A stretch of DNA of 64,000 bases from Metallumcola ferriviriculae (GTDB lineage Bacteria; Bacillota; JADQBR01): positions 1,898,501 through 1,962,500 of the forward strand of contig NZ_CP121694.1 in NCBI RefSeq assembly GCF_035573695.1. Direction: 5' to 3'. Below the pieces are notes generated by a model. That model did not search any database. It was given only the letters and a program-made list of their open reading frames with translations, and was not told the origin of the DNA. Each line of letters starts with the position of its first letter. Position 1 is the first letter of the stretch. The translations under genes were made by a program, and so were the position numbers. Below are positions 26,522 through 33,635 of this stretch, piece by piece.

Positions 26522-27472
26522 ATGACTAAAGTTACCATAGATACTGCCTTGGAGCAGCATCACCTGCAAAAACTAATAAAGCAATTTCCTCAGGCTGAGT
26601 TTTGCCTATGTGAGGAACTAGCAGAGGAAAAGGAGCTTTTACTTGAAACTGAAGTGTTGGTTACATACGGTTGGAAGTTAACAGCAGAACTGGTGCGGCG
26701 GATGCCGAAATTAAAGTGGATTCAGGCACTCCGGGCTGGAGTTGATAACTTTCCTGATGGAGAAATAACTAAGCAGGGAATTGTGGTTACCACGGTCAGG
26801 GGAATTCACGGTATACCGATGGCAGAGCATGCTTTTGGCATGATGTTGTCCTTTAGCAGAGAGTTATTGGCTTTTAGGGGTGCCCAAAGCCAGAAGCAAT
26901 GGAGACGGGATATGTCGCCGAACGAAATATACGGGATGACCTTAGGGGTGGTGGGTACGGGAAGTATCGGTCGGGAAGTAGCTAGGCGAGGCACAGCATT
27001 CGGTATGATGGTTTTAGGGGTTAATACCAGCGGAAATCCGGTTGATGGAATTGAAAAGATGTTTAGCGCGAAGAAGCTGGAAGTGCTTCTTAAACAATGC
27101 GATTACGTAGTAGTAACTCTGCCGCTAACCGACGCGACATACCATATGTTTGGCGAACAAGAGTTTAGCCAGATGAAATCAACCGCCTACTTTATAAACC
27201 TGGCCCGGGGACAGGTAGTGGAGGAGCCTGCTATGGTAAAGGCATTGCAGGAAAAAGAAATTGCCGGGGCAGGCCTGGATGTCTTTGAAGAGGAACCACT
27301 TTCACCTAACAGCCCTTTATGGGAAATGGAGAATGTCCTAATAACTCCCCACCTGGCTGCTTTATCTCCGCGCTATACCACTCGGGCAGTGGATGTATTT
27401 GCGACAAATTTAGCTGCATATCTAGCAGCCGAATCCCTGCATAATGTAATGAACTGGAAAAGGGGATATTGA
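26522..27472 (+). CDS. D-isomer-specific 2-hydroxyacid dehydrogenase
   Basis: 316 residues of the phosphoglycerate dehydrogenase/D-2-hydroxyacid dehydrogenase family. The Rossmann glycines are in GVVGTGSIGREVARRG near 142-157, the catalytic Arg region is INLARGQVVEE, the Glu is in AGLDVFEEEPL, and the His is in LITPHLAAL. The N-terminal lid is short and divergent, so substrate cannot be predicted; serA is unlikely because there is no ACT domain. GGAGGGAGAAAG precedes ATG 26522. Confidence 0.9.
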   Translation: MTKVTIDTALEQHHLQKLIKQFPQAEFCLCEELAEEKELLLETEVLVTYGWKLTAELVRRMPKLKWIQALRAGVDNFPDGEITKQGIVVTTVRGIHGIPMAEHAFGMMLSFSRELLAFRGAQSQKQWRRDMSPNEIYGMTLGVVGTGSIGREVARRGTAFGMMVLGVNTSGNPVDGIEKMFSAKKLEVLLKQCDYVVVTLPLTDATYHMFGEQEFSQMKSTAYFINLARGQVVEEPAMVKALQEKEIAGAGLDVFEEEPLSPNSPLWEMENVLITPHLAALSPRYTTRAVDVFATNLAAYLAAESLHNVMNWKRGY

Positions 27473-27494: not shown

Positions 27495-27523
27495 TTGACA
27501 GCGAAAATGCAATATAGTAGAAT
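27495..27523 (+). promoter_or_regulatory. Sigma-A-type promoter of the selenoprotein gene
   Basis: TTGACA (27495-27500), a 17-base spacer, then TAGAAT (27518-27523), about 36 bases before the start codon. Confidence 0.75.
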
Positions 27524-27559
27524 TGAAAGTGACAATTTTACTTGAGGAGGCATTTCAAA

Positions 27560-27883
27560 ATGGATAAGAAGGTACAGATTCAGGTGTTTGGTTCACGTTC
27601 TTGGGACGCATGCAATAGCGGCGGTTGAGGCCCCAAACAGACTCAGGAAGAACTCACCGGTCTGGTGAGAAAGATGGTAATGGACCAATATGGTGACACT
27701 GTGGAAATGACTTACATTGATGTTAGCGATGACGCAGTAAATGATTATCCCGAGGTTAAGCCTCATTTGGATCATCCCGGGACACCACTGCCAATTGTTG
27801 CTTTAGACGGTGAACCTAAATGGGCAGGAGCAATTTCCTACCACCATATCGTTAAAGAACTGCAAAGCCTAGGAGTTGCATAA
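27560..27883 (+). CDS. Thioredoxin-fold-like small selenoprotein (UGA read as selenocysteine)
   Basis: The frame opens at ATG 27560 after GAGGAGG and runs to TAA 27881-27883 with one in-frame TGA at 27626-27628 (codon 23). Both sides read as one protein of 107 residues: KVQIQVFGSRSWDACNSGG, then U23, then GPKQTQEELTGL. Cys18 and Sec23 form a CNSGGU redox-type motif. The C-terminal part has YIDVSDD and HPGTPLPIVALDGEP, an arrangement like thioredoxin-like YuzD/SaoT-type small proteins, with a cis-Pro-like TPLP. A SECIS hairpin lies downstream of the UGA. Own promoter and terminator make it monocistronic. Substrate unknown. Gene finders would start it too late, at 27665. Confidence 0.9.
27653..27669 (+). 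promoter_or_regulatory. Bacterial SECIS element inside the selenoprotein gene
   Basis: CTCACC (27653-27658) pairs perfectly with GGTGAG (27664-27669) around the loop GGTCT. The loop begins 30 bases after the UGA and has the GG(U) start expected for SelB binding; the same GGUCU loop occurs in E. coli fdhF. Confidence 0.88.
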
Positions 27884-27888
27884 CAGGA

Positions 27889-27917
27889 ACAGGTCTTTTT
27901 TAAGGCCTGTTTTTTTT
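27889..27917 (+). terminator. Terminator after the selenoprotein gene
   Basis: ACAGGTC (27889-27895) pairs with GGCCTGT (27904-27910), followed by seven T. Confidence 0.88.
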
Positions 27918-31056: not shown

Positions 31057-31131
31057 GCTGATGTGGCTCAGAGGTAGAGCAGCGCACTCGTAATGCGCAG
31101 GTCGTCGGTTCAAATCCGACCATCAGCTCCA
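31057..31131 (+). tRNA. tRNA-Thr (anticodon CGU, CCA encoded)
   Basis: Acceptor GCTGATG/CATCAGC pairs perfectly. D arm GCTC AGAGGTA GAGC, anticodon stem GCGCA/TGCGC with loop CTCGTAA (anticodon CGT), and T arm GTCGG TTCAAAT CCGAC are all present, and CCA is encoded. It reads ACG codons. The integrase and excisionase remnants just downstream suggest that its 3' end was used as an attachment site. Confidence 0.95.
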
Positions 31132-31158
31132 GAAAAACGTCGGCCCCGCAAGGGTTTC

Positions 31159-31234
31159 AGGGTTTGGTGGATATTGGTTCGGGTGAGGCAAAAGTGCTTT
31201 ATCAAACCGATATCAAACCAAACCCTATTTTTTA
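31159..31234 (+). terminator. Long hairpin and T-tract after tRNA-Thr
   Basis: AGGGTTTGGT (31159-31168) pairs with ACCAAACCCT (31217-31226), with further partial pairing inside, followed by ATTTTTT. It probably ends the tRNA transcript. Confidence 0.6.
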
Positions 31235-31596
31235 GCTTCTTGCAGGTATATCAGTAATGCTAGCAGCTTCTTGTTGTAGTGATGGTGCGACGTGGGAATA
31301 TATGTTGATTGTAACATCAATTGATGAATGACCTAAACGCTCTTGGACAACTTTTGGATGTACATTATTCAGCAAAAGAGAAGTCGCATGCGAATGCCGC
31401 AAATTATGAGGTGTAAGGCCAGGAATCCCTAGTTTCGCAACCATTTTGCGCATGTGTTTTGAGCTTCACGTTTTGAGTATACAGTGCGTGAGATATTTGC
31501 CCTTCTGCCAGTTTTAAGGTCAGTATAAGACACCATTACATCATAAACAGTTCCTCTTGTCTTCGTCTCTCGCTCTTCAATATGTCCTCTTGACAT
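31232..31596 (-). pseudogene. Tyrosine recombinase (integrase), internally deleted
   Basis: The 5' part starts at ATG 31596 after a GGAGG site and encodes about 58 residues of the N-terminal arm-binding domain (GTVYDVMVSYTDLKTGRR, ISRTVYSKREAQ). Near 31455 the frame changes and only the C-terminal catalytic part follows: LTPHNLRHSHATSLL, LGHSSIDVTINIYSHV, which holds the R-H-x-x-H box, the later His and the Tyr. Roughly 200 residues between are missing, including the first catalytic Arg. The protein cannot be active. It points away from tRNA-Thr, next to a putative excisionase, as in integrative elements. Confidence 0.85.
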
Positions 31597-31631
31597 CACT
31601 CGAACCTCCTTTGGCTTTACCCAGAGGACAT

Positions 31632-31883
31632 CTATTGTATATCACTATTTACTTGAATTTGCAACCACTTCTTTAATGAAACCAAAGGTACACGGATGTG
31701 TTTGCCAAGCCGTATAGAAGGTATAATATCGTCGCGTACTAACTCGTAGGCTTTTGTTCTTCCTATTCTTAAGATCTTAGCAACTTCAGGAACTGTAAGT
31801 AATACTTTATCTTCAAATAAAGCAAGCAAGGTTTCGTTAGAATTCTTTTCCTCAGTGGATGTAATTTTCCTGTCAGCAATCAC
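31632..31883 (-). CDS. Excisionase-like helix-turn-helix protein
   Basis: 83 residues with a MerR-type winged helix as in phage/ICE excisionases: LLTVPEVAKILRIGRTKAYE, then SIRLGKHIRVPLVSLKKWL. It sits upstream of the integrase remnant in the same orientation, the usual xis-int arrangement. A good ribosome site (GAGGAGGTGAG on the minus strand) precedes it. The IS4-type element has inserted about 36 bases upstream, probably cutting it off from its promoter. Confidence 0.75.
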   Translation of the reverse strand: MIADRKITSTEEKNSNETLLALFEDKVLLTVPEVAKILRIGRTKAYELVRDDIIPSIRLGKHIRVPLVSLKKWLQIQVNSDIQ

Positions 31884-31906
31884 CAGTTACTCACCTCCTC
31901 GTATAC

Positions 31907-31919
31907 AGACATTAAACAA
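31907..31919 (+). repeat. Left target-site duplication of the IS4-type element
   Basis: AGACATTAAACAA, identical to 33636-33648 on the other side of the element. Confidence 0.85.
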
Positions 31920-33635
31920 TAGGCGTTTGCAAAACGCCGCAACCCTTGCAAATTCTATCTTTTTTCTTGCTTAGTTATATAGAACTCCTCACTTGTCTTG
32001 TGTAAAATATAGTTAACAGGCAATATCTACATTCAACAAGAAAGGAGATCTATTCTGTGAAATTTAAACAATTATCCCTATCTGATATTTATGACGGTTG
32101 TCTTGATTTCGTTGATAAGGATAAACCTCGGTTTCTAGCGCTTCTTGAAGAGCATATTCAACTTTCAGAGTATATTTCGCTGAGTTTCTATCAGGCTTTT
32201 TACAAGCACTTTGGTCGCAAACGAAAATTTAAGCTTGAGTCTTTTCTTTATGCACTCATCATTCAGAGAATCTTTTCTATTCCTACAGATGCGCTTCTGA
32301 TTATTTTTTTGAATTTTTCCAAGGAAATCCGTGAATTCTGTGGTTTTTCTAAAGTACCTGATGCATCAAAATTTACACGATTTAAGCAAGATTTTTCTAA
32401 ACATCTTCAAACACTTTTTGATAACCTTGTTGATCAAACTGAACCTATTTGTGAGCAAATTAACTCAGAACTTGCTTCATATCTCGTCTTTGATACCTCT
32501 GGCGTTGAAGCTTACGTTACTGAGAATAATCCTAAGTTTATCAATCGCTTAATCAAGCAGCTTAAGTCTCAATACAAAGGCAACTCTTCTGTTGACCCAT
32601 ACAAAATGGCATACGGCATTATGCCTTCCTGCGCATCATCAAATCCAAATGTCAAACAGCTTTACATCAATGGCCATTTTTGCTATGTCTATAAATTTGG
32701 TATGCTCACAAATGGCCTTGGTATAGTCAGAAATATTTCCTTTTTTGATGAAGACTTTATAAATGCACACCCTGAAATCCCAATAGAGAAAAAGTCTGAT
32801 TCCCCTGATGAAGATAAATCCTTATCCGATTCTAAAGCACTTAAACCTGTTCTGCGCGACTTTTTTAAAACACATACTCATTTTAAACCCAGCACGTTTA
32901 TTGGCGATGCTGCTTTTGATACAAACGATTCCTATAACTTTTTATTGAAGGATTGTCACTTTTTAAAAACAGTCATTCCTCTGAACGAACGAGGTTCTAA
33001 GAACCTCCCTGAACCCGGGTTCAACGAATCTGGACAACCTCTGTGTCCGTTAGATTCTTCTTTACCCATGAAATATGAAGGTAAAGCGCCCTTAAGGAGT
33101 GGCGTTGTTAGAGATAAATGGGTTTGCCCAAAAATGAAGTGGAAAGGTTCTAAACGCATTACTTTATGTGAACATCCTTGCTCCGACTCTCCTTCTGGTA
33201 GAATGTTTTATACCTATCCTGAAAAAGACTTAAGACTTTATCCTGGCATTATTAGAGACACCCCTGAATGGATTGATATCTACAAAAATCGTTGCGTTAT
33301 TGAGCAAACCATTCAACACTTTAAATCCAATTTTGGCGTCGCCAACAGAAAAACTACAAATGCTTTAACCATTAAGGCTGACTTACTCCTTGCAGGAATT
33401 ACTCAACTGCTTACCGTTATTCTTGCAGACAAACTCCATAAACACGAACTCATCAGAAGCCTTAAACCTCTTTTGGCTTAGCAAATCCTTTATACTTGCT
33501 CTTTCAACCCGCAAAATACTTGCGGTTATTTGTGCCGAATTTTTTCTGTCCAACCTCTGCTTAAAATTTTCTGTCCTCTTTATTAAACTTTCTGATTAGC
33601 TGCCTACGTTAAATTTTGAATTTCGCAATTACCTA
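31920..33635 (+). mobile_element. Complete IS4-type insertion sequence, 1716 bp
   Basis: Bounded by imperfect inverted ends (left TAGGCGTTTGCAAAA; right, reversed, TAGGTAATTGCGAAA; 11 of 15 match) and by a perfect 13-bp direct repeat. A 13-bp duplication fits the IS4 family (about 9-13). One transposase gene fills the element. The codon use is more AT-rich than the flanking chromosome. The exact duplication suggests a fairly recent insertion. Confidence 0.85.
32057..33481 (+). CDS. IS4-family DDE transposase
   Basis: 474 residues. The N-terminal part (FKLESFLYALIIQRIF...ASKFTRFKQDF) resembles the DNA-binding domain shared by IS5/IS1182-type enzymes. The DDE triad is Asp146 (YLVFDTSGVEAYV), Asp284 (TFIGDAAFDTND) and Glu416. 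The last lies in YKNRCVIEQTIQHFK, exactly the IS4 signature Y-x2-R-x3-E-x6-K (Tyr409, Arg412, Glu416, Lys423). GTG/ATG start region follows AAAGGAG. No frameshift, so it is probably functional. Confidence 0.9.
   Translation: MKFKQLSLSDIYDGCLDFVDKDKPRFLALLEEHIQLSEYISLSFYQAFYKHFGRKRKFKLESFLYALIIQRIFSIPTDALLIIFLNFSKEIREFCGFSKVPDASKFTRFKQDFSKHLQTLFDNLVDQTEPICEQINSELASYLVFDTSGVEAYVTENNPKFINRLIKQLKSQYKGNSSVDPYKMAYGIMPSCASSNPNVKQLYINGHFCYVYKFGMLTNGLGIVRNISFFDEDFINAHPEIPIEKKSDSPDEDKSLSDSKALKPVLRDFFKTHTHFKPSTFIGDAAFDTNDSYNFLLKDCHFLKTVIPLNERGSKNLPEPGFNESGQPLCPLDSSLPMKYEGKAPLRSGVVRDKWVCPKMKWKGSKRITLCEHPCSDSPSGRMFYTYPEKDLRLYPGIIRDTPEWIDIYKNRCVIEQTIQHFKSNFGVANRKTTNALTIKADLLLAGITQLLTVILADKLHKHELIRSLKPLLA

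Follow-up and report, generated by a model that had tools for sequence, protein, structure and literature searches.

A probable selenoprotein gene in Metallumcola ferriviriculae points to an uncatalogued family of small proteins with a predicted thioredoxin-type fold

In a 64,000-nucleotide stretch of the Metallumcola ferriviriculae genome (contig NZ_CP121694.1, positions 1,898,501 to 1,962,500 of the forward strand; hereafter the window), a + strand frame at 27560-27883 runs from ATG 27560 to TAA 27881-27883 with one in-frame TGA, at codon 23 (27626-27628). Is this TGA read as selenocysteine, and if so, what kind of protein is made? A previous sequence-only reading had proposed a small selenoprotein, and the single frame that it described, with a good ribosome site, a TAA end, and TGA as codon 23, was borne out by the sequence and its translation. 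The encoded protein has 107 residues (MDKKVQIQVFGSRSWDACNSGGUGPKQTQEELTGLVRKMV...LGVA) and the motif CNSGGU. We consider it very likely to be a small selenoprotein of an uncatalogued family, with a thioredoxin-type fold, UGA decoded by SelB and tRNA-Sec, and a redox role suggested by comparison. The evidence is by sequence: gene structure, a conserved UGA, coding on both sides of it, Sec machinery, a fold model, and Sec/Cys exchange. The features of the locus, in window coordinates, are as follows.

27495..27523, +: sigma-70-like promoter TTGACA-17-TAGAAT, 11/12 matches, a consensus match only
27544..27550, +: Shine-Dalgarno sequence GAGGAGG, from sequence; relatives have similar sites
27560..27883, +: probable selenoprotein gene, 107 codons including Sec23, stop TAA, from reading frame and homologues
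27611..27613, +: codon of Cys18, the nearly invariant partner of Sec23 in alignments of relatives
27626..27628, +: in-frame TGA, very likely read as selenocysteine (Sec23), from frame and homologues
27638..27656, +: usual place of the family SECIS (xxTCTC / GAGAxx, loop 16 nt past TGA), broken here
27653..27669, +: SECIS candidate CTCACC-GGTCT-GGTGAG, loop 30 nt past TGA, from folding and comparison with the sister gene, whose stem is identical
27885..27914, +: intrinsic terminator, hairpin followed by a U run, from folding

The gene had been credited with its own promoter and terminator. The terminator is strong (13-bp hairpin, -15.4 kcal/mol, z -5.8), while the promoter stands as a consensus match. 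TGA is a normal stop in this genome, and the gene directly upstream (26522-27472) terminates with it, so a reassigned genetic code is ruled out as the reason for the in-frame TGA.

The protein-like sequence noted on either side of the TGA was supported by comparison with a sister genome from the same taxonomic family, in which the gene is 72% identical and has TGA at the same codon. Ka is 0.17 before the TGA, where Ks is saturated, and 0.15 after it with Ks of 1.18; the resulting Ka/Ks of about 0.13 indicates that the part past the TGA is under protein-level selection. A protein search of 398 Bacillota genomes gave relatives in 67, the closest dozen all with one in-frame TGA, and a profile search of 396 Actinomycetota genomes gave matches in 28, the 24 best each with one in-frame TGA. 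A DNA pattern combining the UGA with the SECIS of the relatives matched 93 stretches in species genomes, of which 80 were read; 72 encode the family, and the other eight are chance matches that were set aside. The 72 loci belong to Bacillota, Actinomycetota (Coriobacteriia, Anaerosomatales, and Thermoleophilia), Chloroflexota, and Armatimonadota. U23-G24-P25 in the alignment derived from them is imposed by the pattern used for the search and was not counted as evidence. One cultured relative is Carboxydocella thermautotrophica (locus L129). The prediction that homologues would carry Sec or Cys at position 23 was right on both counts, with Sec in several phyla and Cys in one relative (L013) that has GGCGP, codon TGC, and no SECIS-type stem. 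In a wider clade with motifs such as GGU-SCS..SCG, Sec is at the earlier of two Cys positions, and on the tree of the wider family the Sec/Cys label changed at least 5 times, changes forced by supported branches. The two Sec positions may be opposite ends of a single Cys pair, in a part of the alignment that is gappy.

Single-protein scans of genome contigs and viral contigs and a tblastn of plasmids gave no confirmed relatives, the SECIS DNA pattern had no match in the viral contigs, and searches of PHROGs and, with the single sequence, of PDB using the window protein returned nothing. Nothing in these scans pointed to a phage gene.

All four selenocysteine genes looked for, selA, selB, selC, and selD, are present in the genome. 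The first two are adjacent (335958-339261), with selA (recognised by eye) directly upstream of selB (388 bits), and tRNA-Sec (selC, 74.6 bits) lies 5 kb beyond them. About 1 kb past tRNA-Sec is a gene (345488-346294, named by eye) that resembles arsenite methyltransferase genes and begins with a Cys-rich stretch. The selD gene (414315-415238) also encodes a selenoprotein, with a single internal TGA (YACAAGUAAK); no clear SECIS was predicted for it. A search of the genome for GrdA gave no match, and neither did the control for that search. Among Bacillota, selB is present in 39 of the 39 genomes with the Sec form of the family, against 263/398 in the phylum sample. It is also present in 45 of the 50 genomes found by the DNA pattern; the draft state of most of these assemblies, which come from metagenomes, may account for the five that lack it.

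The thioredoxin-like fold that had been proposed from the letters is supported by an AlphaFold2 model (71 sequences) with pLDDT of 92 and strands and helices in thioredoxin order. Its best fold match is 1xg8 (Z 9.7 over 102 residues), followed by ArsD (Z 8.9) and thioredoxins (about 8), and a profile of the relatives also retrieves 1xg8 by sequence (E 3.7e-8). P78, invariant in a 22-row alignment, would occupy the place of the thioredoxin cis-proline. The structure 1xg8 is Staphylococcus aureus SA0798, of the DUF1462/YuzD family (PF07315), which shares the thioredoxin-type fold and a similar length. Several Sec-containing relatives score above the Pfam cut-off for DUF1462 (28.1, 35.0, and 42.9 bits against 25), which is passed by some members from Actinomycetota and Chloroflexota; the window protein itself is unmatched by the PF07315 model (none at E 10). 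In 1xg8, the two cysteines are at a shorter spacing and there is no Sec, whereas the window protein has C-x4-U. No selenoprotein is reported for DUF1462/YuzD in the literature searched. The spacing of C18-x4-U23 is, as had been pointed out, unlike the common CxxU, and the CxxC active site of thioredoxin is absent; it equals the C-x4-C of the ArsD site.

The mechanism that we propose is as follows. In a small cytoplasmic protein, with UGA codon 23 decoded as selenocysteine by SelB and tRNA-Sec and a stem-loop just downstream assisting the decoding, Sec23 would supply the selenol that attacks or binds, with Cys18 as its partner, the two forming a selenenylsulfide. Electrons would pass from thioredoxin reductase or a ferredoxin pool to a disulfide or other soft electrophile, in anaerobes. 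A thiol/selenol redox protein whose C18-U23 selenenylsulfide is reduced in this way is probable. Several points run against this main reading: C-x4-U is not the thioredoxin CxxC, redox-relay genes are missing next to the gene in the genome of the window, and the SECIS is at an unusual place for the family, in a region whose overall folding does not beat that of shuffles.

Neighboring genes were counted over 79 distinct loci, with names from reading the sequences; the numbers are raw counts that include kin and have no random-region control. A small 4Fe-4S ferredoxin gene is directly upstream in 36/79 loci, mostly from related Coriobacteriia, and thioredoxin reductase is a neighbor in 8/79 (Bacillota and Chloroflexota). 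Other neighbors are an FmdB-type zinc ribbon (13 loci), DUF362 (9), PP-loop ATPase (9), thioredoxin (7), and QueC (4). In the genome of the window, metK and a 2-hydroxyacid dehydrogenase gene are near and an ABC ATPase gene is downstream (all three named by eye), with no redox-relay genes; this context tells little about function and is common to the sister genome on the upstream side only. In six loci (L074 to L077, L114, and L158), the selenoprotein gene adjoins one for a small protein (about 60 residues, motif resembling RWPAHSVKP), which in L114 forms a fusion with DUF302.

The resemblance to ArsD raises a different possibility, that the protein is a real selenoprotein but a binder or chaperone of soft metals or metalloids, with C18 and Sec23 as ligands, and not an oxidoreductase. 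ArsD (PF06953, NF033727) has a thioredoxin-type fold, is the second-best fold match, and has a C-x4-C-G-P that aligns with C18-x4-U23-G-P. The same genome encodes a true ArsD (CCSTGVCGP, 1597580-1597816) upstream of an ArsA-like ATPase, and the family profile makes this very alignment to it with 22.8 bits; relatives match Pfam ArsD weakly, at best with 25.5 bits where the cut-off is 27. ArsD, however, has an extra adjacent Cys and an ars operon setting, which the window protein lacks. Only the C-x4-C part of the ArsD ligand set C-C-x4-C has counterparts here, and the third Cys, which in ArsD precedes the one aligned with C18, is Ala and is not conserved in the family. The window protein scores below both ArsD cut-offs (13.6 bits against 27 for PF06953, 15 against 90 for NF033727), and redox genes predominate among the neighbors in relatives, an ArsR-type regulator being limited to a few loci. 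We regard a metalloid-binding role as unlikely and retain the thiol/selenol redox protein as the preferred reading.

A complete SECIS hairpin 30 bases after the TGA had been described, and its position, stem, and loop were confirmed; it is not, however, the usual SECIS of the family. The 20 relatives taken from the protein search share a stem of the form xxTCTC-[ATC]GGxx-GAGAxx, its loop placed 16 nt past the TGA. Its codons are TCT for Ser in 20/20 and GAG for Glu in 20/20, while elsewhere in the same 20 genes TCT makes up only 16% of Ser codons and GAG 43% of Glu codons. The outer stem pairs vary compensatorily (15 cells changed on both sides; 0/500 shuffles). Actinomycetota members mostly have the usual stem, and one clade has it one codon further downstream. 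In the window gene, the usual stem is broken by Thr ACT in place of Ser TCT and by Glu GAA in place of Glu GAG. The Ser codon is likewise Thr in the sister gene (ACT/ACC across the pair), and the usual stem is no longer formed there. Two Actinomycetota relatives (L204 and L205) also have Thr (ACT) for Ser, which shortens their usual SECIS stem.

The hairpin at 27653-27669, 14 nt downstream of the usual place, is apparently a relocated SECIS, to judge from the two genes. It is present in the minimum-energy and centroid structures alike, and with a stem of 6, a loop of GGTCT, and a spacing of 30 it lies within the published bSECIS limits (stem of 4 to 16 bp, loop of 3 to 9 nt, G in the first two loop positions, and spacing of 16 to 37 nt; PMC13188914). 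An equally good SECIS-type stem-loop arose in only 0.5% of synonymous recodings of the protein (P about 0.005). The total folding energy of the region after the TGA does not beat that of shuffles (z about 0, not significant), so the hairpin alone is modest evidence, and the case for a selenoprotein does not rest on whole-energy folding tests. Conceivably the gene encodes a selenoprotein but SelB uses some structure other than the GGTCT hairpin, given that 20/20 protein-found relatives use the stem 14 nt upstream and that the recoding P value is no better than stated. We find this rather improbable: the usual stem is broken in both genes, whereas the new stem is identical in the sister despite about 60% divergence at synonymous sites (pS 0.6), with one difference, in the loop (GGTCT/GGTTT).

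A role in tRNA modification, carrying sulfur or selenium, was also considered. Some relatives have an upstream PP-loop ATPase, which is QueC (with QueD) in 4 loci and thiolation-like in 9, and in the sister genome the gene is followed by one that looks MiaB/MtaB-like by eye. Each of these links is restricted to one lineage, ferredoxin and thioredoxin-system neighbors are commoner, and QueC is not known to use sulfur, which we counted against such a role; it appears quite improbable. A reading of the TGA as a genuine stop or a mutation, leaving a pseudogene or two short frames, is barely credible, for although TGA is a normal stop in the genome and the energy of the hairpin by itself is unremarkable, the TGA is kept at one codon across phyla, purifying selection acts after it, and genomes with the TGA-containing gene have SelB.

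The family is absent from a catalogue of 119 selenoprotein families from May 2026 (PMC13188914), from the nine families newly reported by deep-Sep (PMC12013277), and from NCBIfam release 20. A full-text search of a literature set with few subscription journals found no description of it, so that an earlier report is possible. The catalogue does include other small selenoproteins with a thioredoxin fold and Sec in a Cys-type site, namely, thioredoxin with UxxC, SelW-like proteins with CxxU, Sec.1 with CxU, Sec.2 with UxC, and SaoT, but these are other families with other motifs, and none is listed as DUF1462, ArsD-like, or C-x4-U-G-P (PMC13188914). The gene had been called easily missed by annotation, and indeed standard annotation would cut it to 22 codons, with the result that the family tends to go unseen in public protein sets.

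Tentatively, these genes may form an undescribed, multi-phylum group of selenoproteins in the DUF1462/ArsD superfamily, with Sec at either Cys position depending on the clade. In the same plausible but tentative picture, the SECIS would have jumped 14 nt in one lineage with decoding kept, and the products would be ferredoxin- or thioredoxin reductase-coupled selenol reductases of anaerobes. A conserved family over at least three phyla would bring into the selenoproteome an active site of a new type, C-x4-U-G-P, and tie selenocysteine to the ArsD/YuzD fold. The window gene would further be a naturally occurring example of a SECIS that has moved inside an orthologous gene, on which the plasticity of SECIS placement could be tested.

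Two minor observations were made beside these results. Another large clade of small selenoproteins (L017, L029, L037, L047, L051, L056, L063, and relatives) has earlier-Sec motifs (GGU-SCS...SCG and GU-GP...CG) and includes many Cys forms; those of its members that were scanned had no match to any NCBIfam selenoprotein model. Further along the window, a tRNA-Thr gene (31057-31131, +) precedes short - strand frames that resemble an integrase and an excisionase, and a transposase-like gene at 32057-33481; the region from 31057 to 33481 is probably the border of a mobile element.
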